DNA of 34,997 bases from positions 1 through 34,997 of the forward strand of contig JAQBUY010000003.1 in the NCBI GenBank assembly GCA_027623775.1. Direction: 5' to 3'. Under the pieces are notes generated by a model. It was not told the origin of the DNA. It did no database searches and saw only the letters and a list, made by a program, of their open reading frames with translations. This DNA is from Pseudomonadota bacterium. Its GTDB lineage: Bacteria > Pseudomonadota > Alphaproteobacteria > HIMB59. Of this stretch, positions 1,121-30,426 are shown in pieces (within the stretch, counting starts at the first letter, position 1; each line of letters starts with the position of its first letter). Position numbers and translations under genes: made by a program.

Positions 1121-2518
1121 TTAAAATAGCTTTAGGTATTCTTTAATTTCCCAGTCAGTAGTTGTTGTATGATACCTGCTCCACTCGTCATACTTGTAGC
1201 CAATAAAGTTTTTAAGCATAGACTCACTAAATACTTCTTTAGTCAAAGGATCTGCCTTAAAAGCATCAATAGCCTCTAATAAGTTTCTTGGAAGAGTTTT
1301 GATCTTCTTGCCTTCTTCTTCTGTAATATCATAAAGACTTTTATTAGTAGCTTCAGGTGGTTGCATATTTTCAGTGATACCTTTAGTTACAGCAGCCGAC
1401 ATTAAAGTGAAAGTTAGATAAGGATTTTGTGTTAAATCAGAAGCTCTATCTTCTATACAAAATCTGTTTTGAGGCAATCTAATCATAGCAGATCTATTAT
1501 TACTTCCATAAGTCATGTGTGTAGGAGCCCAAGTGTGTCTACCGCCATCTAAACCTTCAACTGTAGGCACAAATCCATTATAAGAGTTAACAGTAGGACA
1601 AGCTAAAGCTGTGATTGCTGCACCATGCTCTAACATTCCAGCAACAGCATTCATAGCTCTTGATGAAAAATTATCTCCGTCTTTATATATATTTTTATTT
1701 TTTTCACTTATACATTCAACACTATGATTAATATGCGCTCCTGACCTCCAATCACTTATTTGAGTTTTAGGCATATATGAGATAAAAAAACCGTGTTTTT
1801 TTGCAATTTCTTTTAAAAGAACTCTTAAGAAAATAAATCTATCAGCCATACCAAGCATATCAGTATAACCAAAATCTAGTTCGTACTGACCATAGGCACC
1901 CTCTGCAACTACATCATGTAACTCCCACTTAAGATCTTCATTTAAAATATCAATAATCTCTTTCAAAAAATTCATTCCATCAATTGAATACTCTGAGTCA
2001 TATCCAAAAGCTTGTCTTCTTAAAGGAATAGGATCTCTATCAATGGCTTTTACAGGCTTACCATTTTCCCATTTCATTACAAAAAACTCAGGCTCTATAC
2101 CTACATAAAATTTTAGATCAGCATCTGCATTTTTCTTAATTTGTTTTTTAAGTGTTTGTCTTGGACAAACATCATAAGGCTTACCATTCCACCACAAGTC
2201 AGAAAATACCCATGCACAGGTTTTATCCCAAGGACATATCAATAAGGAATCAAGGTCTGGTACAGGAATTTGATCATTATCGGCAGCAGTTAATTCAGGA
2301 ACAAAAGAAACAGAGTGGACAGCAAACTGAGGACCTTTACCAGAGCACAGATCTTCAAAATCACTTATGGGCATAGGTTTAGTTTTTGGACTACCTAAAA
2401 AATCAATCCAATGGGAGTAGATGTATTTAACACCTTTGGACTCTAAGTCTTTTTTTACAGCTTTTACTCTTGCAGGATCCGGTAAGGCATCCTTCATATT
2501 TTCGATATATTCTCCCAT
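1121..2518 (-). CDS. Glutamine synthetase family protein (divergent GS-fold ligase)
   Basis: 465 aa ORF; GS signatures PTVNSYNGFVPT, NNRSAMIRLPQNRFCIEDRASDLTQNPYL. Confidence 0.8.
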   Translation of the reverse strand: MGEYIENMKDALPDPARVKAVKKDLESKGVKYIYSHWIDFLGSPKTKPMPISDFEDLCSGKGPQFAVHSVSFVPELTAADNDQIPVPDLDSLLICPWDKTCAWVFSDLWWNGKPYDVCPRQTLKKQIKKNADADLKFYVGIEPEFFVMKWENGKPVKAIDRDPIPLRRQAFGYDSEYSIDGMNFLKEIIDILNEDLKWELHDVVAEGAYGQYELDFGYTDMLGMADRFIFLRVLLKEIAKKHGFFISYMPKTQISDWRSGAHINHSVECISEKNKNIYKDGDNFSSRAMNAVAGMLEHGAAITALACPTVNSYNGFVPTVEGLDGGRHTWAPTHMTYGSNNRSAMIRLPQNRFCIEDRASDLTQNPYLTFTLMSAAVTKGITENMQPPEATNKSLYDITEEEGKKIKTLPRNLLEAIDAFKADPLTKEVFSESMLKNFIGYKYDEWSRYHTTTTDWEIKEYLKLF

Positions 2519-5556: not shown

Positions 5557-6864
5557 ATGTCAGTAAATTTACATAATTATGCTAAGAAAAATGGTATTGA
5601 ATATTTTTTCGTAAGCTTCGTTGATATGTTTGGAATACTAAGATCTAAGTTAGTTCCTGCAAGAGCTATAGATGAAATTCAATCTGAAGGAGCAGGTTTT
5701 GCAGGTTTTGCAACCTGGCTTGATATGTCTCCATCTGACCCTGATATGTTTGGAATGCCCGATGGTGATAGTGTAATGCAACTACCCTGGGATAAAAAAA
5801 TTGCTTGGGTCGCTTGCGATTTATATATGTCAGGAAAACCTGTTGAAGCCTCACCTAGAATTGCTTTAAAAAATCAAATAGAGAGAGCAAAAAAATTAGG
5901 AATGCATATGAAGTCTGGAGTAGAGTGTGAATATTTTCTTGTGAATTCCGATGGTACCGCACTTTTTGATGAAAAAGATACACAAGAAAAACCTTGTTAT
6001 GACTCAGCAGCGCTCATGCGCAGATACGATATCATCACAGAAATATGTGATGCAATGATTGAATTAGGCTGGAAGCCTTATCAAAACGATCATGAAGATG
6101 CGAATGGTCAGTTTGAAATGAATTGGGATTTTTCTGATTGTTTGACGACAGCTGATCGACATGTTTTTTTTAAGTTTATGACAAAATCAATTGCTGAGAA
6201 GCATGGTATGAGAGCAACTTTTATGCCCAAACCTTTTGTGAATCTCACAGGCAATGGTTGTCATAGTCATATTTCAGTTTGGGACAAAACGGGAAAGAAA
6301 AATTTATTTTTAGATAAAAAAGATGAATTAGGTTTATCTCAATCTGGTTATCATTTTTTAGGTGGAGTGGTTGAAAGCGCTGATAAAATGGCCGCTATTT
6401 TTAATCCAACTGTTAATAGTTATAAAAGGATTAATGGATCTGTGACAACGTCTGGCGCTACTTGGTCTCCGAGTTCCATTACTTGGGCTGGAAATAATAG
6501 AACACATATGGTTCGAGTTCCAGGTCCTGGAAGATTTGAATTGAGACTAATGGATGGTGCTGTAAACCCCTATTTACTTCAAGCGGGTAGTTTAGTTCTA
6601 GGGTTGGATGGCGTTATTAATAAAAGAGATCCAGGAAAGAGATTAGATATAAATATGTATACAGAAGGTCATAAAGCAGGAAAAGTTAAAAAACTGCCAT
6701 TAAACTTATTAGACTCTATTCGTAATTTCGAAGCTTCTAAAATCATTAGAGAAGGATTTGGGAACCAATTTGTTGATAGTTATGTAAAGCTAAAAAACAA
6801 AGAGTGGGAAGCGTTCAATAAGCACCTTTCTGATTGGGAAAGAAATGCAACACTAGACTGTTAA
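5557..6864 (+). CDS. gmaS: Type III glutamine synthetase family: gamma-glutamylmethylamide synthetase (GmaS) or GlnT
   Basis: 435 aa; NDHEDANGQFEMNW, NGCHSHISVWD, NNRTHMVRVPGPGRFELRLMDGAVNPYLLQ; location near mgs/mgd. GmaS versus GlnT cannot be settled without phylogeny. Confidence 0.7.
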   Translation: MSVNLHNYAKKNGIEYFFVSFVDMFGILRSKLVPARAIDEIQSEGAGFAGFATWLDMSPSDPDMFGMPDGDSVMQLPWDKKIAWVACDLYMSGKPVEASPRIALKNQIERAKKLGMHMKSGVECEYFLVNSDGTALFDEKDTQEKPCYDSAALMRRYDIITEICDAMIELGWKPYQNDHEDANGQFEMNWDFSDCLTTADRHVFFKFMTKSIAEKHGMRATFMPKPFVNLTGNGCHSHISVWDKTGKKNLFLDKKDELGLSQSGYHFLGGVVESADKMAAIFNPTVNSYKRINGSVTTSGATWSPSSITWAGNNRTHMVRVPGPGRFELRLMDGAVNPYLLQAGSLVLGLDGVINKRDPGKRLDINMYTEGHKAGKVKKLPLNLLDSIRNFEASKIIREGFGNQFVDSYVKLKNKEWEAFNKHLSDWERNATLDC

Positions 6865-6870
6865 AAATAA

Positions 6871-7428
6871 ATGTTATCAAAAGAAATATTAAGAGAAAAG
6901 TTTTTAGATTGGCAATGTCAATCAAGAATTCAATCTTTTAGATTGCAAAATGGAAGGCCAAATTCTTCAATGGCTCCTCTTTTATTAGACAAAAAAGGTA
7001 ATGAAATAAGTAGAATTATAGTTGTAATTACAGAAAACGATCCTGACAATACTACTAAAATGTTTGAACATATCAATAAAGAAACTTACGATCCAGCTAC
7101 TCGATTTGATAAAATGAATAAATTTCTTTCCTCTGAATATTTCATAGATAGAAATAATTTTTCCGACTCACTTTTTGCCACTTTTCCAATGAATTCTTCG
7201 ATTACTAAAAAAATACTTAAAGATATTTCTTGTACGTTAGATTTTATTCATCTCTCTACTAATTACCGTTTGATTTGCAGTGCATTTAAATTAGATATAA
7301 ATGAAGAGCATTGGGCAAATATTTACTGGCATAATAAGAACTTTAATCCTGGATTAGGGTCAGATATTGATGTAATCAAATTTATTCCCGACTGGAAAAA
7401 ATCAAAGCTTATTAGAATTACCGATTAA
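6871..7428 (+). CDS. Uncharacterised 185 aa protein coupled to the GS-III gene
   Basis: ORF starts 6 nt after the GS-III stop, same strand; no family recognised. Confidence 0.65.
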   Translation: MLSKEILREKFLDWQCQSRIQSFRLQNGRPNSSMAPLLLDKKGNEISRIIVVITENDPDNTTKMFEHINKETYDPATRFDKMNKFLSSEYFIDRNNFSDSLFATFPMNSSITKKILKDISCTLDFIHLSTNYRLICSAFKLDINEEHWANIYWHNKNFNPGLGSDIDVIKFIPDWKKSKLIRITD

Positions 7429-7461
7429 AAAAGGGGGATAAGAATTACTCTACCCCCTTTT
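7429..7461. terminator. Bidirectional terminator between convergent genes
   Basis: AAAAGGGGG...CCCCCTTTT inverted repeat in a convergent intergenic space. Confidence 0.65.
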
Positions 7462-7482: not shown

Positions 7483-7971
7483 TTATTCTACTAATTTAAA
7501 ATTATCACCCTTCCCATATGTTCTTTTTAGCTGAACAAGTGGATGATTTGGTGACATTTGAAATTTAATTAATAATTCTCTCGCTAACATATCTCTGTCT
7601 TGTTGACCTTTTGGAAGATTCATTTTTTTAGGTAATGTTATCCACGCATTCGCATTTCTATCAAAAACTGCCGGCGTATCACCTTCAAACCCCATATGAA
7701 TATCTTCTAACCAGTTAAGATCATCCCAACCCATTATATCGATATATTTTTTGAGAAATGGTGTAATGTGCTTATAATCAGGAATTAAATTTACATCATA
7801 ACGATAGCCAATATGCTGACCAATCATTTTTTCTCTTGATGATTTAATTTCCTTATCTTTTAACTTTGCTCCACCAACTACCTGATAATCAGTTTTTGAA
7901 ACTTTCTTCTTAGAAGTTGCTTTAACGCTACCGGAAGATTTTTTCTTTGTAGTTTTTTTCTTTGTTACCAT
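7483..7971 (-). CDS. Uncharacterised 162 aa protein with Lys/Ser/Thr-rich N-terminus
   Basis: Last ORF of the second triad operon, 11 nt downstream of the FMN-domain gene. Confidence 0.75.
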   Translation of the reverse strand: MVTKKKTTKKKSSGSVKATSKKKVSKTDYQVVGGAKLKDKEIKSSREKMIGQHIGYRYDVNLIPDYKHITPFLKKYIDIMGWDDLNWLEDIHMGFEGDTPAVFDRNANAWITLPKKMNLPKGQQDRDMLARELLIKFQMSPNHPLVQLKRTYGKGDNFKLVE

Positions 7972-7982
7972 TATTCCTCCTT

Positions 7983-9317
7983 TTATAATGAGTGATAGTT
8001 GTCAACGCCAACTGTGAGATTTGTACCTGCTAGTGGAACTTTAGCCATAGCTGATGATTCCATTGTAAGAGCTGCCAAATCTTCAGGCTCAAGTGAGTGG
8101 ATATTAGTTTTTCCACAAGCTCTTGCTAACATTTGACATTCTAATGTCATAGTACTTAATAAGTTATAAACCCTGTCTGCTGCTTCTGTAGGATCTAATC
8201 TACTTCTTAGAACGGGATCTTGAGTGGCTACACCAACTGGACATCTTCCAGTATGACAGTGGTAGCAGTATCCTGCCTCAACACCCATTTCTTTTTCATA
8301 GTCAGCCTCAGGAATGTCTTTATTACAATTCAGTGCCACTAATGCAGCTGTACCGATTGCAATTGCATCTGCGCCTAGAGCTAACGCTTTAGCCATATCA
8401 GCTCCGTCTCTAATACCACCTGCAAAAACAAGTGAAATTTCACCTGATTTTCCTACGTCATCCAAAGCTCTTCTAGCTTCTCTCACAGCAGCAATTCCAG
8501 GAATACCTGTATTTGCAGCAGCAATATGAGGACCTGCAGCTGTAGAACCTTCCATTGAGTCTAAGAAAATTGCATCTGGATCACATTTAGCAGCCATACG
8601 AACATCATCATAAACTCTTGAAGCTCCGATTTTTAATTGGATCGGCACTTGATTATCTGTTAACTCTCTTAGCTCTTGTATTTTTAAAGCTAAGTCATCA
8701 GGACCCATCCAATCAGGATGTCTTGCTGGTGATCTTTGATCAATTCCCGCTGGTAAAGATCTCATCTCAGCAACTTGATCAGTAACTTTTTGACCCATCA
8801 AATGACCGCCCATACCCACTTTTTGACCTTGCCCAATAAACACTTCAATAGCATCTGCTAATTGAGCATGATGAGGGTTAAAACCATATCTTGATTGAAT
8901 ACACTGGTAGTACCATTTATGAGAATATCTTCTCTCATCAGGTATCATTCCACCTTCTCCAGAACAAGTAGCACTACCCGCCATTGATGAACCTCTAGCC
9001 AAAGCTATTTTTGCCTCATAAGATAAAGCACCAAAACTCATACCGGTTATATAAACAGGTATATCTAGTTTTATAGGATTTTTTGCTCTAGGGCCGATAA
9101 TAGTCTTTGTTAAACATTTTTCCCTGTAGCCTTCAATAACAAATCTAGTTAATGTACCAGGTAAGAAAACCAAGTCATCCCAATGAGGAATTTTCTTCAT
9201 TAGAGCCATACCTCTCATACGGTAACGACCTAATTGAGCCTTAATATGAATATCGTCCATTACTTCTGGAGTGAAGATGGAATTTTTTCCTAATAGTTGT
9301 GTATTACGTTTTGTCAT
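7983..9317 (-). CDS. FMN-binding glutamate synthase domain protein (GlxD/MgsC-like), cysteine motif retained
   Basis: 444 aa; GMSFGALSYEAK, VFAGGIRDGADMAKALALGADA; Cys motif CYHCHTGRCPVGVATQDP. Confidence 0.9.
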   Translation of the reverse strand: MTKRNTQLLGKNSIFTPEVMDDIHIKAQLGRYRMRGMALMKKIPHWDDLVFLPGTLTRFVIEGYREKCLTKTIIGPRAKNPIKLDIPVYITGMSFGALSYEAKIALARGSSMAGSATCSGEGGMIPDERRYSHKWYYQCIQSRYGFNPHHAQLADAIEVFIGQGQKVGMGGHLMGQKVTDQVAEMRSLPAGIDQRSPARHPDWMGPDDLALKIQELRELTDNQVPIQLKIGASRVYDDVRMAAKCDPDAIFLDSMEGSTAAGPHIAAANTGIPGIAAVREARRALDDVGKSGEISLVFAGGIRDGADMAKALALGADAIAIGTAALVALNCNKDIPEADYEKEMGVEAGYCYHCHTGRCPVGVATQDPVLRSRLDPTEAADRVYNLLSTMTLECQMLARACGKTNIHSLEPEDLAALTMESSAMAKVPLAGTNLTVGVDNYHSL

Positions 9318-9326
9318 TATATTTTC

Positions 9327-10163
9327 CTAACCTAATATGCCTTTCTTTTCCGCTGGTTCTAAATTGTCATAATTCCATAACATTCTACCTGCTACATACT
9401 TCTTAAATTTAGAAGCCGGAACTTTACAGTTAATTTCAGCATTTTTAATTTTTTGCTCTAGCCATTTAATTTCATGATCGCTCATTTCACCTTCAATACA
9501 ATCCGTACCTAAAGATTTTGGTTCACCGCCGACAAAGATAATTCCATCATACATAGAGTCTCCCATATTTGCGCTAACATTGCCGCAAACAATAATACGA
9601 CCTCTTTGCATCATAAAACCTGTATATGCTCCAGCATTACCGCCAACTAAGATAGTTCCACCTTTCATATCAATACCAGTTCTAGCACCCGCATCACCTT
9701 TAACAATCAAATCGCCACCCCTAAGAGCTGCTCCAAAACAAGATCCTGCATTATTTTCTATTACAACTTTACCTGACATCATATTTTCAGCACATGACCA
9801 ACCTACTCTACCGTTAATTCTAACAGTAGGTCCATCGATACATCCAAGGCCAAAATATCCTAAACTTCCTTCAAAGATTAAGTTTAATTTATTTAATATA
9901 CCTACACCCAAAGAATGTTTAGCTCCTGGATTTTTAATAACTATAGAACCATAACCTTTTTTAAGTGCGTCTTTAATTTTTTGATTAAGTTCTTTAGCAT
10001 CCATACCTTCACAATCTATTGATGTCCTTTTGTTAAAATCAACATCGTGATTTCCATAATATGTAAAATTTTCTTCCTCTGTGACTTCAAAAAATAATTT
10101 TTGAGATCTACCTGATAAATTTTCATCTTGGAAAGCTGTTACTTTTTTTTCTAAACCTGCCAT
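9327..10163 (-). CDS. GXGXG-domain protein, glutamate synthase C-terminal-like (GlxC/MgsB-like)
   Basis: 278 aa; repeated G-rich beta-helix motifs (GGNAGAYTGFMMQRGRIIVCGN...). Confidence 0.88.
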   Translation of the reverse strand: MAGLEKKVTAFQDENLSGRSQKLFFEVTEEENFTYYGNHDVDFNKRTSIDCEGMDAKELNQKIKDALKKGYGSIVIKNPGAKHSLGVGILNKLNLIFEGSLGYFGLGCIDGPTVRINGRVGWSCAENMMSGKVVIENNAGSCFGAALRGGDLIVKGDAGARTGIDMKGGTILVGGNAGAYTGFMMQRGRIIVCGNVSANMGDSMYDGIIFVGGEPKSLGTDCIEGEMSDHEIKWLEQKIKNAEINCKVPASKFKKYVAGRMLWNYDNLEPAEKKGILG

Positions 10164-11098
10164 ACTTTTACCTCCGCTTCATATGGGTCGTAAGTAATAA
10201 TTTCATGAGGAAAAATATTCCTGATTGCTACTTCTTCTGAAGCGCAAGCAACTATATCTTTACTCTCATAGATAACCATTGGTTTTGCAGCCATATGATC
10301 TTTGGCCATTCCTAGTTGGTTTTTAGTTGAAACAATATAAGTGAAAACACCATCTAGCTCATCTAAACTATCATTCATTGCCTTTTCTAAATCAATGCCT
10401 TTTGACATTTTATCAGCAATATAGACAGCTATAATTTCTGAATCGCAATTAGAATTAAAACGATAACCATTTCTCTCAAGTATTCTTCTATTACCCCAGT
10501 AATTAGTTAATTGACCATTATGAACAACAGCAACGTCTTGATAGGGAAATGCCCAGTAGGGATGAGCGGATTTAATATCAACATCAGATTCAGTTGCCAT
10601 TCTAGTGTGTCCAATTCCATGAGTTCCCATAAATTTATTTAAGCCATATTGATCAGCAACTTTAGTTGCATCGCCTAAATCTTTGATTAATTCAAGACCT
10701 TTTCCTATAGATAAGATCTCAGTATTTTGTACTGTTTCTATATCTTTAGCTAATGCCTCTAGGTCATCACTTTTATATGTAAATTCATAACGAAATGCAT
10801 AGGGAGTGCTTGAAGACTGTTTTAAAATCTTAGCTCCATGTTTTTTCATAATCGCATCTACTTGTTTTTTACGATCTAAAAGAACTGACGGGTCTTCTGA
10901 TTTTGATGATCCATTTTTTTCAGCTGAATTTTCAGATACTTTAAATCTCATAATAAAGCCTGTTTTTAATGGAGTACCATACATAGCGTAACCAGTTGAA
11001 TCAGGTCCTCTATGTTTTATACCCTGAAGCATCAACCTCATCTGTTCGCCAACATTTACAGTCTTCTTTCTATTAATTACTCCTGCTATTCCACACAT
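10151..11098 (-). CDS. Class II glutamine amidotransferase (GlxB/MgsA-like)
   Basis: Starts MCGIAGVINRKK, giving the Cys nucleophile after Met removal; the longer ORF to 11194 is not supported. GTHGIGHTRMATES motif. Confidence 0.9.
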   Translation of the reverse strand: MCGIAGVINRKKTVNVGEQMRLMLQGIKHRGPDSTGYAMYGTPLKTGFIMRFKVSENSAEKNGSSKSEDPSVLLDRKKQVDAIMKKHGAKILKQSSSTPYAFRYEFTYKSDDLEALAKDIETVQNTEILSIGKGLELIKDLGDATKVADQYGLNKFMGTHGIGHTRMATESDVDIKSAHPYWAFPYQDVAVVHNGQLTNYWGNRRILERNGYRFNSNCDSEIIAVYIADKMSKGIDLEKAMNDSLDELDGVFTYIVSTKNQLGMAKDHMAAKPMVIYESKDIVACASEEVAIRNIFPHEIITYDPYEAEVKVWQV

Positions 11099-11123
11099 TT
11101 CGTTTTTCTCCTTATAATTATTT

Positions 11124-12590
11124 CTATGGTAGGCAATCCAAATATTTATCAAGATCCCACTGAGTTGGAGTTGCAAGAAATTCTTCCCACTCATCTGTCT
11201 TATACTCGGTAAAGACTCTTAACATATCGCCCGGCATTGCGTCTTGAATAACCTTATCTTTAGAAAGTTTTTCTAGAGCATCACCTAAATTCATTGGTAA
11301 CTTCTCTTTACCAGCATTTGCTTCATACATATTTGCCTGTTCTGGTTTCCCTGGATCCATTTTATCATTTATTCCATGATCAAAGGCTTTAAGTAATCCC
11401 GAACCCATTAGGTAAGGATTATGAGCTGAGTCTACTGAACGGTATTCAAATCTACCGGGAGCAGAAACTCTTAATCCACAAGTTCTATTTTGAAAACCCC
11501 AATCAGCGTAAACCGGTGCCCAGAAACCTGCATCCCATAATCTTCTATAGGAATTAACCGTTGATGAACCAATTGCAGTAAGAGCTGGAAGATGTTGCAT
11601 AACACCCCCAATTGCTTGTAAGCCAATTTTACCTGGAATTTTTCTGTCATCAGTATCAGGCATAAATACATTCTCACCGCCTCTTCTATGATGGTAAACT
11701 TGCTCCATACCTGGGAGTGCCTTCACATCATTTCCGCATGAGATAATTTCATCATTTCCTTCTCTCCATAATGAAATATTAGTATGACAACCGGATGCAG
11801 ATACGCCAACAAAAGGTTTTGATAAGAAGCATGCTATTAAATTAAATTCTCTAGCAACTTGGGCACAGATCTGCCTATAAGTAGAAAGTCTGTCCGCATT
11901 TCTCAACACATCATCGTAGTTAAAATTAAGTTCTAATTGACCTGGAGCATCTTCATGGTCTCCTTGAATGATATCAAGACCCATTAGACGAGAATACTCA
12001 ATAACCTTCATATAGACAGGTCTTAAAGATTCAAATTGATCAATGTGATAGCAATATGGCTTTGAAAAACCAGAACCTGTAGGTGTACCATCTTCATTTT
12101 TAGTTAGCCACATCATTTCAGGTTCAGTTCCAGCTCTTAATTCAAGACCATGTTTATCTTTAAATTCTTGATGGTGTCTTCTTAAGTTACCACGACAATC
12201 AGAGGTTAAGAAACCACCCGGATCCTCATCTTCTTCTCTATTTCTAAAACAAGTACAAAAAACTCTAGCTATTCTTTTATCCCAAGGAAGTTGCATAAAA
12301 GTTTCTGGGTCAGGAATTCCTACTAACTCATGTGCTTCGGGACCATATCCAATATAATTACCATGCCTATTTGTAAATAAATTTGCTGTTGATCCATAAA
12401 CTAATTGGAAGCCTTTTTGAGCAACAGTTTCCCAATGATCAGCAGGGTAACCTTTACCAACAATTCTTCCTGTTACAGAAATGAATTGAAAATAAATATA
12501 TTCAATACCAAGTTCATTAATCTTACTTCTTACTTTTTTTACGTTCTCATTTCTTTCTTTATCAGCAACGTATGATTCTAGTGCGGTCAT
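11124..12590 (-). CDS. Glutamine synthetase family protein (GS-fold ligase of second triad operon)
   Basis: 488 aa from ATG at 12590, preceded by an AAGG-type RBS (GGTAAGGAATATG); GDHEDAPGQLELNF, SASGCHTNISLW, NRTCGLRVSAPGRFEYRS. Confidence 0.85.
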   Translation of the reverse strand: MTALESYVADKERNENVKKVRSKINELGIEYIYFQFISVTGRIVGKGYPADHWETVAQKGFQLVYGSTANLFTNRHGNYIGYGPEAHELVGIPDPETFMQLPWDKRIARVFCTCFRNREEDEDPGGFLTSDCRGNLRRHHQEFKDKHGLELRAGTEPEMMWLTKNEDGTPTGSGFSKPYCYHIDQFESLRPVYMKVIEYSRLMGLDIIQGDHEDAPGQLELNFNYDDVLRNADRLSTYRQICAQVAREFNLIACFLSKPFVGVSASGCHTNISLWREGNDEIISCGNDVKALPGMEQVYHHRRGGENVFMPDTDDRKIPGKIGLQAIGGVMQHLPALTAIGSSTVNSYRRLWDAGFWAPVYADWGFQNRTCGLRVSAPGRFEYRSVDSAHNPYLMGSGLLKAFDHGINDKMDPGKPEQANMYEANAGKEKLPMNLGDALEKLSKDKVIQDAMPGDMLRVFTEYKTDEWEEFLATPTQWDLDKYLDCLP

Positions 12591-12612
12591 ATTCCTTACC
12601 TTCCCCTTTACA

Positions 12613-13959
12613 TCAACTCCACGGGAACGGACTCTTAGAGACCGGATGTAATTTCCCTTGTTCATATCTAGAAAATCTGAAAGGTTCTAGAATATCAGAT
12701 TTTCCACCTAGTAATTCATCAGAGACTAAATCGCCAATACCAGCCATCTTATAACCATGGTTAGCATCAGCAATAATATAAACATTTTCTCTGTATTGAT
12801 CAAAAACTGGGAATCGATCTGGTGTTACACAACCAATACCTCCAGCTTTTTGTTTTTTATACTTAGTGTGACAGCCTACAAATTGCTTTTGACTAAAAGC
12901 AAGAGCTGAAGTGAACTTATCTTCAAAAGATTCCCTAGGCTGAAATTCGTTTGAATCATGACCGTAAGGATCTAAAGAAACATCTTCGTTGGCCTTAGTA
13001 ACATCATAAGGAGATGAACCTCCTTGAATGCCAACTCTATAGATATCTGGTTTATAATAAAAACCCCACATTTCATTTTCATGAATTACATGGCCATTTT
13101 TATCAGAGATAAGAGTCGCTTCTGTATCTACATGAATAACAGGATATTCAGTTCCTTTAGCTGTTTTATAAGAATAAGGATCTACATCTAACTCACCTTC
13201 TTCTAAAGCCATATATGACCACATTTTTAAATCATCAGAAAATGTTCCATCTGGTTTTTTAATCTTGATTGTTTTTGGCAAATCTAACATTTCCCAGAAA
13301 TTTCTAACCCATGGTCCTGCAGCAACAACTACTTGATCACATTCAATTGTACCTTCACTTGTTTCGACTGACTTAATAGCCTGACTACCGCTTGACGTAT
13401 TTAAAGAAGTTACTGTAACTCCTTCAAAAATTTTTGCACCTGCACTAACTGCAAATTTATGAAAACCTTCAATAGCTCCCCTGTTAGCACCATAACCTGT
13501 TTTCTTTTCATGAAGAACAGAAGTTATTCCTTGAGCTTGCCAATCAGGCAAAAGCTCTTTCATATATTTATTACAATCCGCTTCACCTTCGATGAAATCA
13601 GATTCAAATCCTATTTCTTTTTGTTGATGATAAACTTCAGACATACCTTCATGCATTAACTGAGAATTAATTTGCATATATCCTACTGGCTTATAAGTGA
13701 GTGCTTCCGCATTTGCATTCCAGATTTTCACTGAATGATCCATTAGATGTCTCATTGCTGGTTGGTAATAATTATTTCTAACAATACCACAAGCTACACC
13801 GCTAGCACCTGAAGCTACTTTAGATTTTTCTAAAACTACAACTGAATTTTCTTTTAATTGGCCCTTGTTAGCTAACTTCTGACATAGATGCCAGGCTGTA
13901 CTTAGACCATGAATACCCGCTCCTATTATAAGGTAATCACATTTTGTTGGTATGCTCAT
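12613..13959 (-). CDS. DAO-family FAD-dependent oxidoreductase (sarcosine-oxidase-beta / DadA-like)
   Basis: 448 aa; N-terminal dinucleotide-binding motif DYLIIGAGIHGLSTAWHL; strong RBS (GGAGGAGTTATG). Confidence 0.85.
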   Translation of the reverse strand: MSIPTKCDYLIIGAGIHGLSTAWHLCQKLANKGQLKENSVVVLEKSKVASGASGVACGIVRNNYYQPAMRHLMDHSVKIWNANAEALTYKPVGYMQINSQLMHEGMSEVYHQQKEIGFESDFIEGEADCNKYMKELLPDWQAQGITSVLHEKKTGYGANRGAIEGFHKFAVSAGAKIFEGVTVTSLNTSSGSQAIKSVETSEGTIECDQVVVAAGPWVRNFWEMLDLPKTIKIKKPDGTFSDDLKMWSYMALEEGELDVDPYSYKTAKGTEYPVIHVDTEATLISDKNGHVIHENEMWGFYYKPDIYRVGIQGGSSPYDVTKANEDVSLDPYGHDSNEFQPRESFEDKFTSALAFSQKQFVGCHTKYKKQKAGGIGCVTPDRFPVFDQYRENVYIIADANHGYKMAGIGDLVSDELLGGKSDILEPFRFSRYEQGKLHPVSKSPFPWS

Positions 13960-14052: not shown

Positions 14053-14820
14053 TTATTTATCAACAATTAAATTAGAAATTTTTATAGAGGCAGATTGAAG
14101 TATTTTAATGTAATCTGGCAGTAGTTTTGGGGACATTAAAGACTTACTTCCTGAAAAAGAAATTCCTGCAAATGATCTTTTTTCATGATCTAAAATTGCA
14201 ACGCCTATGCCGTAAATGTTATCAAAAGTCTCTGCATGATTAAGTGAGTAACCCTGTTTGCGAATCAAATTCAATTCTTTTTTAAGTAACTGAATATTAG
14301 TTATAGTATGATTTGTGTGAGGGTAAAAATTATAACTTTTGTATATTAAAGATATTTCATTATCTGGTCTATAGGCTAGAATAACTTTACCAATAGCACA
14401 ACAGTGAGCGTCCAATCTCATACGAAAAGTTCTAAAATTTCCACTGTCATTGTTTGATGAAATTTTATCTGAGTGAACAATTTGAGGACCTTCAAGCATA
14501 GCCAAATAAGTAATTAACCCTGTAGTTTTTGAGACTTCGTTTAAAATATCTTTTGATTCTTCAGATATAGATTGAAGATAATCTGAAATTTCTCCAAATT
14601 GAAAAGCCTTGTGCCCCATTGTGTATGTGTTGGTTGATGTATTCTTATGTATATAACCCAACTGATTTAAAACAGATAAAAGTCTAAATGTTGTTGTTCT
14701 AGATATTACAGTTTTTCTAGAAATAGAACTTGCTTTTAAGGGGAAAACGGATTGAGAAAGTATTTCTAAAATCTTGAAAGATTTCTCTAGAGATTTATTA
14801 ATATATCTATTCTGTTCCAC
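14053..14820 (-). CDS. IclR-family transcriptional regulator
   Basis: 255 aa; N-terminal winged HTH (KSFKILEILSQS...SRTTTFRLLSVLNQLGYI) and C-terminal IclR effector domain (GYSLNHAETFDNIYGIGVAI); GTG start. Confidence 0.9.
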   Translation of the reverse strand: MEQNRYINKSLEKSFKILEILSQSVFPLKASSISRKTVISRTTTFRLLSVLNQLGYIHKNTSTNTYTMGHKAFQFGEISDYLQSISEESKDILNEVSKTTGLITYLAMLEGPQIVHSDKISSNNDSGNFRTFRMRLDAHCCAIGKVILAYRPDNEISLIYKSYNFYPHTNHTITNIQLLKKELNLIRKQGYSLNHAETFDNIYGIGVAILDHEKRSFAGISFSGSKSLMSPKLLPDYIKILQSASIKISNLIVDK

Positions 14821-14896: not shown

Positions 14897-16219
14897 TTAG
14901 AATTTACTACCTGGTATCCAGCTAGTTCCAGATAAAGGTACACCTGCCATTGCTGCAGCTTCAACAGTTAGAGCGCATAAATCTTCAGGTTCAAGGTTAT
15001 GTAAATCATTTTTACCACATGCCCTCGCAATAGTTTGAGCCTCTAAAGTCATGACTTTTAAATAATTAGAAAGTCTTTTTCCTCCTGCTACAGGATCAAA
15101 CCTTTTTATAAGTTTTGGATCTTGAGTGGTAATTCCGGCAGGATCCTTACCTTCATGCCAATCATCATATGCTCCAGCAAACGTACCAAGTTTTTTATAT
15201 TCAGCTTGCCATTTGGGGTCATTGTCACCAAGAGCGATAAGAGCAGCAGAACCAATTGATACAGCGTCAGCACCTAATGCCATAGCTTTTGCTACATCAG
15301 CTCCATTTCTAATTCCACCAGAAACTATTAACTGTACTTCTCTATGCATGTCTAAATCTTGTAACGCTTGAACTGCAGGTCTTATACAAGCTAATGTAGG
15401 TTGGCCAACATTTTCAATAAAAACTTCTTGGGTTGCCGCTGTTCCACCTTGCATACCATCAAGAACGACAACATCAGCTCCCGCTTTGACAGCTAATGCC
15501 GTATCGTAATAAGGTCTTGAGCCTGCTATTTTTACAAATATAGGAACTTTCCAACCTGTAATTTCTCTTAGTTCTAATATTTTAATTTCCAGATCATCAG
15601 GTCCTGTCCAATCAGGATGTCTACAAGCAGACCTCTGATCAATACCTTTAGGAAGAGTTCTCATTTCAGCAACTCTATCACTTATTTTTTGACCTAAAAG
15701 CATTCCGCCGCCACCAGGTTTAGCTCCTTGACCAATTACAACTTCAATAGCATCAGCTTTTCTTAAATCATCAGGGTTCATTCCGTATCTTGATGGAAGT
15801 AATTGATAAACTAAATGCTTAGACTGACCTCTTTCTTCGGGGGTCATACCTCCATCCCCTGTTGTAGTTGAAGTTCCAGCTATACTAGCACCTCTCCCTA
15901 ATGCCTCTTTAGCAGGACCAGACAATGCACCAAAACTCATACCGGCAATAGTTATTGGGATATCAAGATGTAGGGGAATTTTAGCATACCTAGTTCCTAA
16001 CTTTACTTTTGTATTGCAAGATTCCCTATAGCCTTCGTAAGGATATCTAGACATAGATGCTCCTAAAAAAAGTAAATCGTCAAAATGAGGAAGTTTTCTT
16101 TTAGAACCACCTCCTCTAATATCATATATACCTGTTTCGGCAGCTCTTCTTATTTCTGAATTGGTATACTCATCAAATGTCCAAGATTGACGAGGGGTTG
16201 TTTTAAATTTATCACTCAT
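14897..16219 (-). CDS. mgsC: N-methylglutamate synthase subunit C (FMN-binding glutamate synthase domain), cysteine motif lost
   Basis: 440 aa; GMSFGALSGPAKEALGRG; GAYDDWHEGKDPAGITTQDP at the Fe-S motif position; same operon as mgd genes. Confidence 0.88.
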   Translation of the reverse strand: MSDKFKTTPRQSWTFDEYTNSEIRRAAETGIYDIRGGGSKRKLPHFDDLLFLGASMSRYPYEGYRESCNTKVKLGTRYAKIPLHLDIPITIAGMSFGALSGPAKEALGRGASIAGTSTTTGDGGMTPEERGQSKHLVYQLLPSRYGMNPDDLRKADAIEVVIGQGAKPGGGGMLLGQKISDRVAEMRTLPKGIDQRSACRHPDWTGPDDLEIKILELREITGWKVPIFVKIAGSRPYYDTALAVKAGADVVVLDGMQGGTAATQEVFIENVGQPTLACIRPAVQALQDLDMHREVQLIVSGGIRNGADVAKAMALGADAVSIGSAALIALGDNDPKWQAEYKKLGTFAGAYDDWHEGKDPAGITTQDPKLIKRFDPVAGGKRLSNYLKVMTLEAQTIARACGKNDLHNLEPEDLCALTVEAAAMAGVPLSGTSWIPGSKF

Positions 16220-16222
16220 TTT

Positions 16223-16918
16223 TTAATATTCTGACACATTATCTATATTGAAGTTATATAATTTTCTAGCAGATCCATACATTTTAAAATCCTTAGCATC
16301 AAAATTATTTATATTAGCTTTTTTTAATAATGACTTAAGAATTTCAAGATCTTTTTTATTCATTTTTTTTTCTTCACAATCTGCACCAAGAGATTTTACG
16401 AAACCCCTTACAAATAATTTAGCCTCATAAATACTATCACCTAATGCCTCACCCGCATCTCCGCAAACAACCATATTGCCAGCTTGAGCCATAAATGCAG
16501 ACATATGTCCAACAGATCCTTTTACTATAATGTCAATCCCTTTCATGGAAATACCGCATCTGGAACTCGTATTACCATCTACGATAAGGGTGCCGCCATG
16601 AGCTGTAGCGCCAGCAGATTGTGATGCGTTTCCTTTTACATGAACAATACCTGACATCATATTTTCAGCAACCCCAGTACCTACATTGCCTTCTATAGTA
16701 ATGAGTGCTTTTTGATTCATGCCTGCACAATAGTAGCCAACATGACCTTTTATTAAAACTTCCATTTCATCTTTTAATCCTGCGCAAACCGCATGATTTC
16801 CAGTTGGATTTGAAACTAAATAATTTCTTAAGTTAGACTTAGGATCTAAGTTTTGCAAAAGATCATTAACTTCTCTTAAAGTCTTTTTCTTTAAATCTAG
16901 TTTAATTAACTCCCCCAT
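16223..16918 (-). CDS. mgsB: N-methylglutamate synthase subunit B (GXGXG domain)
   Basis: 231 aa; GXGXG repeats; 13-nt overlap with mgsA. Confidence 0.87.
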   Translation of the reverse strand: MGELIKLDLKKKTLREVNDLLQNLDPKSNLRNYLVSNPTGNHAVCAGLKDEMEVLIKGHVGYYCAGMNQKALITIEGNVGTGVAENMMSGIVHVKGNASQSAGATAHGGTLIVDGNTSSRCGISMKGIDIIVKGSVGHMSAFMAQAGNMVVCGDAGEALGDSIYEAKLFVRGFVKSLGADCEEKKMNKKDLEILKSLLKKANINNFDAKDFKMYGSARKLYNFNIDNVSEY

Positions 16919-17796
16919 GAATAAACAACTCCTGGCTCTGGTTCAAAAATTTTTGCAGTATTGACTCCTGGTAGATGAGCCATAGCTTGAAACTCAGATG
17001 CAATAGCTACATAATCTTTAGTCTCAGCAATTACTGCAGGCTTACATGCAATTTCATCTCTAACAATCGCAAAACCATATCTTGTTCCTGCAATAAAAGT
17101 ATAAAAACCATCTAAATCTTTTAATCCATTCATTAAAGTTTCTTTGAGAGATTTTTTTTTAGACAAACTATTTGAAACATAACCAGCCGCAACCTCTGTA
17201 TCATTTTCAGAATCAAAGGATTGTCCTTGTTTTAAAAGTTTTCTTCGTAAATTATTATGATTAGAAAGAGAGCCATTATGAACTAAGCATTCATCTTGGC
17301 CGGTGGAATAAGGGTGAGAACCATTTGTTGTAATGGCACTTTCTGTAGCCATTCTTGTATGACCAATAGCATGAGTACCAGAAAATTTATCTAACTGAAA
17401 ATTTTTTATAACCTCATTAGGATTACCAACTTGTTTAAAAATTTCGATGGATTTTCCATAGCCTATTAAAGATACATCTTTAAATTCTAAAGATATAAAA
17501 GAAATTATTTTTTTAGGCTCTACATCAGAAATTAATACAACATGATCGGAATGTTGCTTAAATTTTAATTTTTTAAATTTTTTAGTAATTATTTTTTTAA
17601 ATGAATTAAAAGAATAATGATTAAGAAGACAAAGCGAATATTTAAATTCCTTTGATTTTTTATTTTCAGAGTAAATAGCAAATCCCGCGCTGTCTGGACC
17701 GCGAGTAGCCATACCTTGCATCATACCAGTTAGATATTTACCTAGATCTTTTGAAAGTTTTTTATTTTTTAAATATATACCAACTATGCCGCACAT
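16906..17796 (-). CDS. mgsA: N-methylglutamate synthase subunit A (class II GATase)
   Basis: 296 aa; MCGIVGIYLK, GTHAIGHTRMATES. Confidence 0.88.
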   Translation of the reverse strand: MCGIVGIYLKNKKLSKDLGKYLTGMMQGMATRGPDSAGFAIYSENKKSKEFKYSLCLLNHYSFNSFKKIITKKFKKLKFKQHSDHVVLISDVEPKKIISFISLEFKDVSLIGYGKSIEIFKQVGNPNEVIKNFQLDKFSGTHAIGHTRMATESAITTNGSHPYSTGQDECLVHNGSLSNHNNLRRKLLKQGQSFDSENDTEVAAGYVSNSLSKKKSLKETLMNGLKDLDGFYTFIAGTRYGFAIVRDEIACKPAVIAETKDYVAIASEFQAMAHLPGVNTAKIFEPEPGVVYSWGS

Positions 17797-17799
17797 TAT

Positions 17800-18405
17800 T
17801 TATACTCCAACATAACCATACTCTAAAGTTGCATCAGTAATACTATGATAAAAAGAACCACCAAAACTTCTAAGGCAAAAGAGTCTGAATGTAGGATTTT
17901 CATCATCAGTAAAATCAACCATAAAACTGATACCGTTATATGTTGAATTGGCACAATTATTTTTTTTAAATTCTGAACTATTGAGGTTTAAAGGAGTTCC
18001 CTTTTTAAGTACATCTATTGAATGTTTTCCTGAAATCTCTATAACTGCTCTAGAGTGAGATAAATCAGTTGTAGCAAAATCTTCCTCATTAACAGCTTGT
18101 TCAATTTTATCTTTTATATTTTTATCTGAAGATACGACCATACAAATATCAGGGCCAGTCCATAAAATTCGAGTTTCATTGTTATAATTTACAGTCTGAT
18201 AAGTTTGGGGAAAATTAAGACTATCTATTTTAATTAAGTCTGTCTTAACATTACTGTTTTTAAATTTTGCTATTTGAAAAATTGAAAGATTTTTCAATTC
18301 CTTGACTGTAACTAAATTTTGTTTTTCTTTGTTTTGATAATCTCCAAAATTTCCAATTTGATGATCGTTATGTAATGCAGATAAAATTATATTTTGATCA
18401 GTCAT
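17800..18405 (-). CDS. mgdD: N-methylglutamate dehydrogenase subunit D (sarcosine oxidase gamma-like)
   Basis: 201 aa; SoxG-like pattern (DLSHSRAVIEISGKHSIDVL, SFGGSFYHSITDA); stop/start overlap with mgdC. Confidence 0.82.
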   Translation of the reverse strand: MTDQNIILSALHNDHQIGNFGDYQNKEKQNLVTVKELKNLSIFQIAKFKNSNVKTDLIKIDSLNFPQTYQTVNYNNETRILWTGPDICMVVSSDKNIKDKIEQAVNEEDFATTDLSHSRAVIEISGKHSIDVLKKGTPLNLNSSEFKKNNCANSTYNGISFMVDFTDDENPTFRLFCLRSFGGSFYHSITDATLEYGYVGV

Positions 18406-21404
18406 TAAGCTCTAACCCTTTCACCTTTAGGATCAACATAATGAGGGGGGACAACTTCAACAAGAATAGAAATATTTTTCAAAGGAGCAACAGCAAATAG
18501 TTTTTTACCGATTTTATTTTTACCATCTTTTAATACTGCTATAGAAAAAGGATTGTTGTATTCGACACTCCAACAAGATGAAGAAACATGACCTAATTTA
18601 GGATTAGGCAACTTAACCTTATCATCTTCAACTAAATGAGATCCTTCAGGTATTTTAGTTTTCTTATCAACAGGAACTAAACCTACTAAAGTTTGTCTTT
18701 CAGGATCATTGTAAGCTAATTTTTCTAAAGATCTTTTTCCAATAAAATCTTTTTTTTGACTTACCATGCCATGCAAACCAATATCATAAGGAACGGCCCT
18801 TCCATCGAGTTCAGGTCCAGAAACATGCCCCATCTCAATTCTTAAAGTAGCTAAAGCTTCTGTTCCATAAGGTTGAATACCGAATTCTTCTCCAGCTTTT
18901 ATAATTTCACTCCACATGAATAATCCATAATTTGAATCGACGTTTACTTCATATGCAAGTTCGCCTGAAAAAGATATTCTATAGATCTTCGCTTTAACTC
19001 CAACTATTTCAGCATCTTTAACACCCATGAAAGGAAAATTTTCAGTTGAAAAATCAATATTTGGAAAAAGTTTTTTCATTAAGTCTCTAGATTTAGGTCC
19101 TGCAACAGCCGCACCAGAAAATTGCTCAGTTGAAGAAACTACATTTACTTTTAATTCTGGCCATACCACTTGCAAATAATATTCTAAATGAGCTAGTACA
19201 TTAGCTGCCTGTGCAGTTGTAGTTGTCATATGAAAATGATTTTCTGACAGTCTAGTTGTAGTACCATCGTCAAATACCATACCATCTTCTCTTAACATTA
19301 CTCCGTATCTAGCTTTTCCTATAGGAAGTTTCATCCATGCATTAGTGTAAACTCTATTTAAAAGTTCTGCTGAATCAGGTCCTTTGATATCAATTTTACC
19401 CAATGATGTAACATCACAAATTCCAACATTTTTTCTAACATTTAACGCCTCACGATTAACGGCTTCAAACATACTCTCATTACCTCTTGGGTAGTAACGA
19501 GGTCTTAACCATAAACCAGCATTTGTGTACACTGCATTATTTTCTTCATGCCATTTATGAGTAGGAGTTTTTCTAGTTGGTTGAAAATGATTACCAACCT
19601 CTCTTCCAACAATAGTTCCGATTGTTACAGGAGTATATGGAGGTCTAAAAGTAGTATGACCAACTTCAGGAACAATTTTTTTTTGAATATTTGAAACTTG
19701 CTGTAAGCCATTTAAGTTACTTGTTTTACCCTGATCTCCCGCCATACCAAGAGTTGTATATCTTTTAATATGTTCGATAGATTTAAATCCTTCTCTTACG
19801 GCTAACTCAACATCAGAGACAGCAACATCATTCTGAAAGTCAATAAATCTTTTCGGATTTTCTCCATCAGGTAAAGGCATACACCAAATTTTTTCATGTG
19901 TTTCTGTTTTAGATTCTTTTGATACTGGAACTTCAGTTTTGATATTTTTTAAAGTTATTAAATTTGACAAATCAAAACCAGCTTGGAAACCTTCCTCTAA
20001 AGATTGTTTTAAGGTAAAAGAGCCATTAGCTGAACCGACCGTAGTCTCTTTTTGTTTTTTTTTATCTGGAACAAAAGCATCAATATTTTTATCAAATTTT
20101 AATTTATTGCCAGATTGAGATGATAGGTGAACTGTTGGTGTCCAGCCACCTGACATACATATACAATCACAGTTAATTTCTTCTAAATCAATAAAACTAT
20201 CTTTACTAGAATTAAGTTTTCCTATCGTTGCTTTGTTAACTTTTAAATGACCTTTAGTATTAGCTACACCAGAACTAAATCTTACTTCGATCCCTAATGA
20301 CTGTGCCTCTTTAACTAAATCTCCAGAAGAACTATCTCTTATATCAAGAACTAAAGGACTAATATTATTTTTTTTAAACTCAATTGCAGACAGGTATGCG
20401 GTATCATTATTAGTAAATATAATTGGATTTTTTCCAACTAAAGTTTCGTAGATTTTCATGTATTCATTTGCGGCTGAAGCAAGAAAGATACCAGGTCGAT
20501 CATTATTGCCAAAAGACAAAGGTCTTTCAATGGACCCAGTTGAAATAATAACTTCGCCAGCTCTTATATAATGTAATCTTTGGCGTGGAGCATACTTAGA
20601 AGGATTTTCAATATGATCGCTGACTCTTTCAAACATAACAGTCATATTATGATCATAATATCCAAATACCTGCGATCTATTTTTAAGAATTACGTTAGGT
20701 AAACTTTTAAGATGCTTGATTGTTTCTTCTGCCCATTCTGTTCCAGGCCTATTGTTAATCATGACCTCATCAGTTAAAAGAGAACCACCAAAATGAGCCT
20801 TATCTTCTGCTAAGATTACCTTGGCACCATTATTAGCAGCAGCCAAAGCACTAGCTAAGCCAGAAGGACCTGAACCAACAACAAGAACATCACAATGTTC
20901 ATAATTGTGTTCATATCGATCTGGATCTGGAGTTAAAGATGCAACACCCATACCTGCTGCTCTTCTAATTATAGGCTCATATATTTTCATCCAAAATGAT
21001 TTTGGCCACATAAAAGTTTTGTAATAAAAACCTGCAGGGAAAAAACGGTTAAGTAAATTATTGACTTCACCAATATCGAATTTCACAGAAGGCCAACAGT
21101 TTTGACTATTAGCTATCAATCCTTCTACTAATTCAACTTCAGTTGCTATAATATTTGGTTCTGATCGATCTCCCTCATGAAGTTGTACCATAGCATTAGG
21201 CTCTTCAACGCCTACTCCTAAAAAACCACGTGGTCTATGATACTTAAAACTTCTTCCAACTAAATGAATTCCATTAGCAATTAAAGCAGAAGCTAAAGTA
21301 TCACCCTCATAACCTAGATAACTTTCTCCGTTAAATTTAAAATTAATTATTTTAGATTTATTTAAAAAAGAATTTATATTTTTTGTTCTATAAGACTGGG
21401 ACAA
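18405..21404 (-). CDS. mgdC: N-methylglutamate dehydrogenase subunit C (sarcosine oxidase alpha-like)
   Basis: 999 aa; FAD/NAD domain VVGSGPSGLASALAAANNGAKVILAED and C-terminal GcvT-like domain; RSFKYHRPRGFLGVGVEEPNA. Confidence 0.92.
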   Translation of the reverse strand: MSQSYRTKNINSFLNKSKIINFKFNGESYLGYEGDTLASALIANGIHLVGRSFKYHRPRGFLGVGVEEPNAMVQLHEGDRSEPNIIATEVELVEGLIANSQNCWPSVKFDIGEVNNLLNRFFPAGFYYKTFMWPKSFWMKIYEPIIRRAAGMGVASLTPDPDRYEHNYEHCDVLVVGSGPSGLASALAAANNGAKVILAEDKAHFGGSLLTDEVMINNRPGTEWAEETIKHLKSLPNVILKNRSQVFGYYDHNMTVMFERVSDHIENPSKYAPRQRLHYIRAGEVIISTGSIERPLSFGNNDRPGIFLASAANEYMKIYETLVGKNPIIFTNNDTAYLSAIEFKKNNISPLVLDIRDSSSGDLVKEAQSLGIEVRFSSGVANTKGHLKVNKATIGKLNSSKDSFIDLEEINCDCICMSGGWTPTVHLSSQSGNKLKFDKNIDAFVPDKKKQKETTVGSANGSFTLKQSLEEGFQAGFDLSNLITLKNIKTEVPVSKESKTETHEKIWCMPLPDGENPKRFIDFQNDVAVSDVELAVREGFKSIEHIKRYTTLGMAGDQGKTSNLNGLQQVSNIQKKIVPEVGHTTFRPPYTPVTIGTIVGREVGNHFQPTRKTPTHKWHEENNAVYTNAGLWLRPRYYPRGNESMFEAVNREALNVRKNVGICDVTSLGKIDIKGPDSAELLNRVYTNAWMKLPIGKARYGVMLREDGMVFDDGTTTRLSENHFHMTTTTAQAANVLAHLEYYLQVVWPELKVNVVSSTEQFSGAAVAGPKSRDLMKKLFPNIDFSTENFPFMGVKDAEIVGVKAKIYRISFSGELAYEVNVDSNYGLFMWSEIIKAGEEFGIQPYGTEALATLRIEMGHVSGPELDGRAVPYDIGLHGMVSQKKDFIGKRSLEKLAYNDPERQTLVGLVPVDKKTKIPEGSHLVEDDKVKLPNPKLGHVSSSCWSVEYNNPFSIAVLKDGKNKIGKKLFAVAPLKNISILVEVVPPHYVDPKGERVRA

Positions 21405-21406
21405 TT

Positions 21407-21673
21407 TTATAATTCCTCTTCCAAACGTACAGTTTTAAAAATTTCATGTGTAGCTGTATCTCTTGAAACTTTAAACCATTGCCTACAACCTGAAATATGA
21501 TGCCATAATTCTGAATGCTTACCTCTAGGATTATCTCTGAAATAAACAAAATCATCCCAATCTTTAGTGCTTACTTCTTGTCCTAGAGCGGGCCTTTTAA
21601 CAGTTGCATCTCCACCATAGGCAAACTCATTTTGAGATCTCTTACCGCAGAAAGGACATTTAATTTCTAACAT
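21407..21673 (-). CDS. mgdB: N-methylglutamate dehydrogenase subunit B (sarcosine oxidase delta-like)
   Basis: 88 aa; CPFCGKRSQNEFAYGGDA, WHHISGCRQWFKVSRDTATHEI. Confidence 0.92.
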   Translation of the reverse strand: MLEIKCPFCGKRSQNEFAYGGDATVKRPALGQEVSTKDWDDFVYFRDNPRGKHSELWHHISGCRQWFKVSRDTATHEIFKTVRLEEEL

Positions 21674-21676
21674 AAT

Positions 21677-29296: not shown

Positions 29297-29309
29297 AATT
29301 TATTGATAG

Positions 29310-30344: not shown

Positions 30345-30378
30345 ATTTATAATAATTATAATCTCAAAATAAAGAAAA

Positions 30379-30400
30379 ATCCCCCCAGAAAAGGGGGGAT
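30379..30400 (-). terminator. Intercistronic stem-loop between tmoX and tmoV
   Basis: ATCCCCCC-loop-GGGGGGAT 8-bp stem, followed on the minus strand by TTTTCTTTATTTT. Confidence 0.65.
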
Positions 30401-30426
30401 AATAAATTAAATTTAATTGGAGCTTA

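Follow-up and report, generated by a model that had tools for sequence, protein, structure and literature searches.

What is a second set of N-methylglutamate-type genes doing beside an N-methylglutamate (NMG) pathway that is already complete? The question is raised by a stretch of 34,997 nucleotides (contig JAQBUY010000003.1 of assembly GCA_027623775.1; hereafter the window) from an alphaproteobacterial genome of 1.37 Mb, 87% complete and of 33% GC, whose nearest named relatives are marine single-cell alphaproteobacteria. On the reverse strand, from 13959 to 7483, the window carries six collinear, intact open reading frames, referred to here as the module. Judging from gene content and sequence features, we think it rather likely that this operon encodes a pathway in which dimethylamine (DMA) is conjugated to glutamate, as a counterpart of the NMG pathway for monomethylamine (MMA). 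On balance, we also lean towards the operon and the NMG dehydrogenase MgdABCD together forming a monooxygenase-free DMA pathway, by which SAR11 and most other marine bacteria converting trimethylamine N-oxide (TMAO) to DMA would dispose of this amine. The module consists, in order, of the following genes:

12613 to 13959, reverse strand: DAO-family flavoprotein (DAO), 448 amino acids, Pfam DAO
11124 to 12590, reverse strand: GSc, amine ligase of glutamine-synthetase (GS) fold, 488 amino acids, Pfam Gln-synt_C
10151 to 11098, reverse strand: class II glutamine-amidotransferase subunit, MgsA/GlxB-like, 315 amino acids, Pfam GATase_6/7
9327 to 10163, reverse strand: GXGXG subunit, MgsB/GlxC-like, 278 amino acids, Pfam GXGXG
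7983 to 9317, reverse strand: subunit with the flavin mononucleotide (FMN) glutamate-synthase domain and a CX2CX4C Fe-S motif, MgsC/GlxD-like, 444 amino acids, Pfam Glu_synthase
7483 to 7971, reverse strand: p162, conserved protein of 162 amino acids, no family match

The genes are separated by 22, 25, -13, 9 and 11 nt after correction of the starts, most of which are preceded by a purine-rich sequence resembling a ribosome-binding site. The start of GSc is most likely at 12590, and that of the amidotransferase should be trimmed to 11098 (MCGIAG..., with the catalytic Cys2), because the longer reading frames overrun the upstream genes. The gene set is no chance grouping. A scan with p162 returned 80 named loci from SAR11, other Alphaproteobacteria, Pseudothioglobus/SUP05, Granulosicoccaceae and other Gammaproteobacteria; the five genes from GSc to p162 form an unbroken row in 67 of the 69 loci that could be checked, and in 62 of 68 they are preceded by DAO upstream of GSc. 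The first-pass annotation of this DNA had described six tightly packed collinear genes, including an unannotated 162-residue protein, as the intact frames and Pfam matches bear out. Its view that they form a second, distinct route of the N-alkylglutamate type with another substrate also holds, the gene set being conserved together over many genomes.

In the pathway that we propose, GSc would act first as a gamma-glutamyl-dimethylamide synthetase, joining DMA to glutamate at the expense of ATP. The glutamate-synthase-like triad, probably including p162 as a further subunit, would take the second step: the amidotransferase would free DMA from the gamma-glutamyl amide and hand it over to the FMN site, where DMA and 2-oxoglutarate would be condensed and reduced to N,N-dimethylglutamate, while glutamate is returned. 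DAO, as an N,N-dimethylglutamate demethylating dehydrogenase or oxidase, would then give N-methylglutamate and formaldehyde, and MgdABCD would convert N-methylglutamate to glutamate and methylene-tetrahydrofolate (THF). In sum, the nitrogen of DMA would enter glutamate and two C1 units would be oxidised, without free MMA being formed or a DMA monooxygenase being needed. We infer the substrate, the intermediates, each reaction and the reaction order from the gene content, conservation, domains, active-site features and distribution described below.

The distribution of the module points to TMAO. In the fetched flanks of the 80 loci, which differ in length and include many close relatives, the gene of the TMAO demethylase Tdm is found in 51, gmaS in 57 and at least one methylated-amine gene in 74; the module thus usually adjoins TMAO or methylamine genes. 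Even genome samples were taken from the window's class (n=289) and from the class of Pseudothioglobus (n=274), with Tdm counted as full-length at 1000 bits or more, and the two samples together hold 36 tdm-positive genomes. The presence of p162, which is the marker of the module, coincides with full-length Tdm in 18 of 24 tdm-positive genomes of Alphaproteobacteria (p=3e-17) and in 8 of 12 of Gammaproteobacteria (p=2e-9).

Tdm, the proposed source of the substrate, leaves DMA to be removed, and the known enzyme for this step is the DMA monooxygenase DmmDABC. We scored a genome as dmm-positive when its protein fell in the DmmC clade of a PF11927 tree (14 rows, support 100/100) beside the DmmD, DmmA and DmmB genes, gene order and Pfam identifying the PF11927 gene as DmmC. 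Module and dmm exclude each other in the 36 tdm-positive genomes: 26 have the module only, seven the DmmC clade only, none both and three neither (Fisher p=1.4e-5, pooled and ignoring relatedness; p=0.0035 with the alphaproteobacterial genomes collapsed to families, which still does not fully correct for relatedness). The raw PF11927 count was rejected as a measure of dmm since it overstates it, the tree placing G358, G022 and the weak hits of the source genus outside the DmmC clade. The operon itself contains no PF11927 gene, DmmA or DmmB. The only PF11927 match of the source genome is weak (58 bits), lies beside a gene for a TauE-like permease and falls outside the DmmC clade; in the source genus, a small protein weakly resembling haem-dependent N-demethylases (58-60 bits; G000:C107:491-958, locus L138) has such a permease gene as its neighbour and is far from that clade.

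The downstream enzymes differ accordingly. As the product of Dmm is free MMA, its hosts need an MMA route, and mgsC is present in 14/14 DmmC-clade genomes. It is found in 13/13 dmm-only versus 28/56 module-only genomes (p=9e-4), so that the module is independent of the MMA enzyme that the product of Dmm requires. Among 40 module genomes examined closely, gmaS (57% identity or more) occurs in 32, and neither gmaS nor mgs was found in seven (G048, G071, G077, G086, which is 100% complete, G194, 98% complete, G299 and G304). In those of them that carry tdm, the amine derived from TMAO is DMA, and GSc is the only GmaS-like ligase found beside it. In the Pseudothioglobus genome G299, tdm, the TMAO transporter, the module, DAO and soxBDAG all lie on one contig, with no gmaS or mgs found; G077 and G304 resemble it without DAO. 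In Pseudothioglobus, the module continues directly into tdm and the TMAO transporter. A different arrangement occurs in G229, where a true GmaS stands directly before the triad and p162. No GSc or DAO was seen at that locus, the genome-wide search having been made without a GSc query, and the genome gave no full-length match to DAO. This arrangement suggests that the specificity for DMA lies in the pair GSc and DAO, the triad, p162 and Mgd being shared or general.

The ligase GSc shares only 30% identity with the window's true GmaS and falls outside the GmaS sequence family, with 286 bits against the type III ligase cut-off of 469.6, which the window's GmaS passes at 643 bits. The structure paper on RhGmaS names its catalytic and amine-pocket residues and reports a Km of 27 uM for MMA and 16 mM for DMA (PMC7948447); RhGmaS is therefore capable of the DMA chemistry, although not at marine concentrations. 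The catalytic Asp177, Glu186 and Arg312 and the amine-site residues are kept in 41-42 of 42 GSc sequences (positions K30', Y147, Q175, D177, E179, E186, N188 and R312). Around them, the 42 GSc differ from 32 GmaS by the fixed pocket changes Y174I, N176G, N182P and A48V. Where ammonia-using GS has Asp50' and the flap Glu, all aligned GSc have Val and Trp.

The triad is related to the NMG synthase of the window, mgsCBA, at 52.6, 35.6 and 32.2% identity. In the tree, MgsC forms a separate clade (100/100), and the FMN subunits of the module form a neighbouring group, not inside MgsC and apart from GltB; a grouping with ammonia-dependent glutamate synthases, which the first-pass annotation had named as the outcome that would speak against it, was thus not seen. 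The amidotransferase, which we propose to free the amine from the gamma-glutamyl amide, keeps its N-terminal Cys: the N-terminus MCGIAG/MCGLAG is present in 106/109 homologues, and HNG and DSE in 109/109. The CX2CX4C motif occurs in 140/140 FMN subunits of the module versus 5/23 MgsC. An NMG synthase is able to run as a redox-neutral exchange; the retained Fe-S motif would fit a reductive reaction that draws on an external electron donor. As an observation on MgsC itself, the 18/23 without the motif have YDDWHEGxDP instead (window 14897-16219; L031, L061, L135, L149 and others), and the deepest-branching ones (L062, L141, L126) retain CX2CX4C, which suggests that the electron supply changed within the NMG synthases. 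As for p162, it has no match in Pfam, NCBIfam or PADLOC, its AlphaFold model (pLDDT 68) has no fold match in the PDB, and it was not found in plasmid records. About 50 residues are invariant over 37 homologues, and the protein probably serves the triad as an accessory subunit.

The AlphaFold model of DAO (pLDDT 88) finds its best PDB fold matches in SoxB, monomeric sarcosine oxidase (MSOX) and dimethylglycine dehydrogenase (DMGDH), at TM-scores of 0.64-0.73; the predicted fold is that of N-methyl amino acid demethylases, with a Rossmann domain binding flavin adenine dinucleotide. Lys404, in an HGYKM motif conserved in 80/90 homologues, aligns with a SoxB lysine in a weak second segment and suggests a carboxylate ligand. 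DAO is a single protein without a GcvT domain and so lacks the four-subunit, THF-binding organisation of NMG dehydrogenase. It is present in 33 of the 40 module genomes, in one of them cut at a contig end, and most of the 40 have a SoxA/MgdC homologue at 42% identity or more. In Pseudothioglobus, a gap of 4 bp separates the DAO gene from the mgdA downstream of it (61% identical), after which comes soxDAG; DAO precedes sox genes also in G176 (L132) and G305 (L130). Such adjacency fits consecutive steps rather than replacement, and DAO probably acts just before MgdABCD. The earlier proposal that DAO replaces MgdABCD had to be given up: the window holds both, they co-occur across genomes and they can share an operon. 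In the SUP05-group loci L095 and L101 (Pseudothioglobus/SUP05), a gene of the homocysteine S-methyltransferase family and a cupin/HTH regulator stand upstream of GSc, DAO having moved to the sox operon.

The surroundings of the operon in the window are those of methylated-amine degradation:

5557 to 6864, forward strand: GmaS (gamma-glutamylmethylamide synthetase), MMA ligase of the partner pathway, 597 bits over the full length to RhGmaS 7CQL
7434 to 7457, reverse strand: terminator-like hairpin just past p162, from a consensus scan; weak alone, such sites being no commoner than in shuffles
14053 to 14820, reverse strand: IclR-family regulator upstream of the operon, Pfam HTH_IclR and IclR_C
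14897 to 17796, reverse strand: mgsCBA, NMG synthase of the MMA route, Pfam/NCBIfam domains
17800 to 22933, reverse strand: mgdDCBA, NMG dehydrogenase, soxG, soxA and soxB models and a SoxD-like reading frame
23121 to 24461, forward strand: tmm, trimethylamine monooxygenase (trimethylamine to TMAO), NF058570 at 812 bits, cut-off 675
24466 to 26811, reverse strand: tdm (TMAO to DMA), NF053776 at 1138 bits, cut-off 1100
27239 to 31380, reverse strand: TmoXWV-like betaine/TMAO transporter of the ATP-binding cassette type, proV, choXWV permease and OpuAC matches

The mgsCBA and mgdDCBA genes are both complete, mgdB being an 88-residue SoxD-like subunit at 21407-21673, in agreement with what had been read from the sequence. 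The IclR-family protein is a possible regulator of the operon, and its gene likewise lies upstream of DAO in L028-L032, L050, L068 and L085. Beside gmaS, a protein of about 185 residues, p185 (6871-7428, forward strand), has no Pfam or NCBIfam match and recurs next to the module or gmaS across Alpha- and Gammaproteobacteria; in some Rhodobacteraceae-like loci, a CN_hydrolase gene (nitrilase-superfamily amidase) lies between p162 and p185 (L099:10345-11190, L115:9052-9897). A third GS-like gene, GSa (1121-2518, reverse strand), lacks the amine-site residues of GmaS, and a class I amidotransferase and an Amt gene lie beyond it.

Several observations weigh against a DMA pathway. No DAO was found in 7 of the 40 module genomes, where another enzyme must perform the third step if the model holds. 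p162 occurs without full-length tdm in 9/27 p162-positive genomes of Alphaproteobacteria and 6/14 of Gammaproteobacteria; there, the substrate may be DMA taken from outside or a different compound. Of the three tdm-positive genomes with neither module nor dmm, G259 and G173 are partial and G022 is complete, and G446 has both p162 and dmmDABC without tdm, so that the exclusion is not absolute outside tdm-positive genomes. The branch joining MgsC with the FMN subunits of the module is moderately supported (94/90). Finally, many sampled genomes are incomplete, and related ones are not independent.

The main rival is a second MMA route, in which GSc and the triad would be isozymes of GmaS and MgsABC, and DAO or another enzyme would convert DMA to MMA, or N-methylglutamate to glutamate. 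It could account for the GmaS amine-site residues all being kept in GSc and for the G229 triad sitting with a true GmaS; moreover, about half of the module genomes are without mgs, and the triad may also serve MMA there. Nevertheless, we regard it as unlikely. With GmaS in 32 of the 40 module genomes, streamlined SAR11 included, a second MMA ligase would be redundant, and the DMA step would go unfilled in the seven genomes in which DAO was not found. Besides, enzymes of the DAO fold use amino acids, and the conserved Lys404 suggests a carboxylate ligand.

Somewhat more doubtful still is a different amine substrate, such as sarcosine, ethylamine or a fragment of a polyamine, the link to TMAO genes then reflecting shared methylated-amine islands. 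The 15 genomes without full-length tdm among the 41 sampled p162-positive ones would be expected in that case, but an unrelated amine hardly explains the exclusion of dmmDABC in tdm-positive genomes, the GmaS-like pocket, or the module running on into tdm and the TMAO transporter in Pseudothioglobus. An ordinary ammonia-assimilating set of GS and glutamate synthase, induced by nitrogen limitation, is very improbable: ammonium transporters adjoin the module in 62/80 loci and the glutamate-synthase Fe-S cysteines are retained, but GSc has lost the residues required for ammonia use, the FMN subunit branches apart from GltB, and many module genomes have a separate GltB of about 1500 residues. The amines first suggested (dimethylamine, ethylamine, glycine, sarcosine, ammonia) can be narrowed to dimethylamine on genomic evidence.

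A DMA pathway of this kind would fill a recognised gap. SAR11 bacteria outnumber all other heterotrophs at the ocean surface, TMAO is a fish osmolyte and DMA a product of TMAO. SAR11 and abundant marine Gammaproteobacteria are reported to have tdm and lack dmmDABC, SAR11 being held to possess no enzyme for DMA at all; from this a DMA bottleneck was proposed, also as an explanation of DMA-derived marine aerosol (PMC5520151). Yet strain HTCC1062, which lacks dmmDABC, can grow with TMAO as its only source of nitrogen, and an unknown Dmm isoenzyme was supposed (PMC8918994, 2022); such growth requires demethylation of DMA. In the literature searched, with subscription papers and preprints outside the search, we found no published route through gamma-glutamyl-dimethylamide or dimethylglutamate, and NCBIfam has no model matching it. 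For the DMA step missing from SAR11 and from other marine TMAO degraders without dmmDABC, the operon offers a candidate that is concrete, widespread and open to testing. If this is true, the bottleneck argument would need revision, as would the choice of dmm genes to mark DMA use, and gamma-glutamyl-dimethylamide and N,N-dimethylglutamate are predicted as metabolites in marine bacteria.

Among known systems, the NMG pathway (GmaS, MgsABC, MgdABCD) is like the module in its GS-fold ligase, its three-subunit glutamate-synthase-like architecture and its demethylase of the sarcosine-oxidase family. The two differ in forming separate clades (GSc 30% identical to GmaS, the FMN subunit 53% to MgsC), in the addition of DAO and p162, in the Fe-S motif, always kept by the FMN subunit of the module and missing from 18/23 MgsC, and in the occurrence of the module in genomes without GmaS and Mgs. 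The genes annotated GlxBCD and GlnT in rhizobia and SAR11 (Sun 2011, PMC3160333) share the domain architecture and naming of the module. In the same paper, SAR11_1304 is listed as a monomeric sarcosine oxidase, of then unknown substrate, beside the aminomethyltransferase SAR11_1303. From gene order and numbering in loci L046 and L048, SAR11_1304 would correspond to DAO and the module to SAR11_1304-1309. The glxBCD genes SAR11_1313-1315 with glnT (1316) were rejected as the module, since the gene order of L046/L048 shows them to be the Mgs/GmaS set. DmmDABC (Lidbury 2017, PMC5520151), finally, shares with the module the same proposed metabolic step, the removal of Tdm-made DMA; however, Dmm is a haem- and flavin-dependent monooxygenase yielding free MMA and has no genes in common with the module, which stands in its place in tdm-positive genomes.

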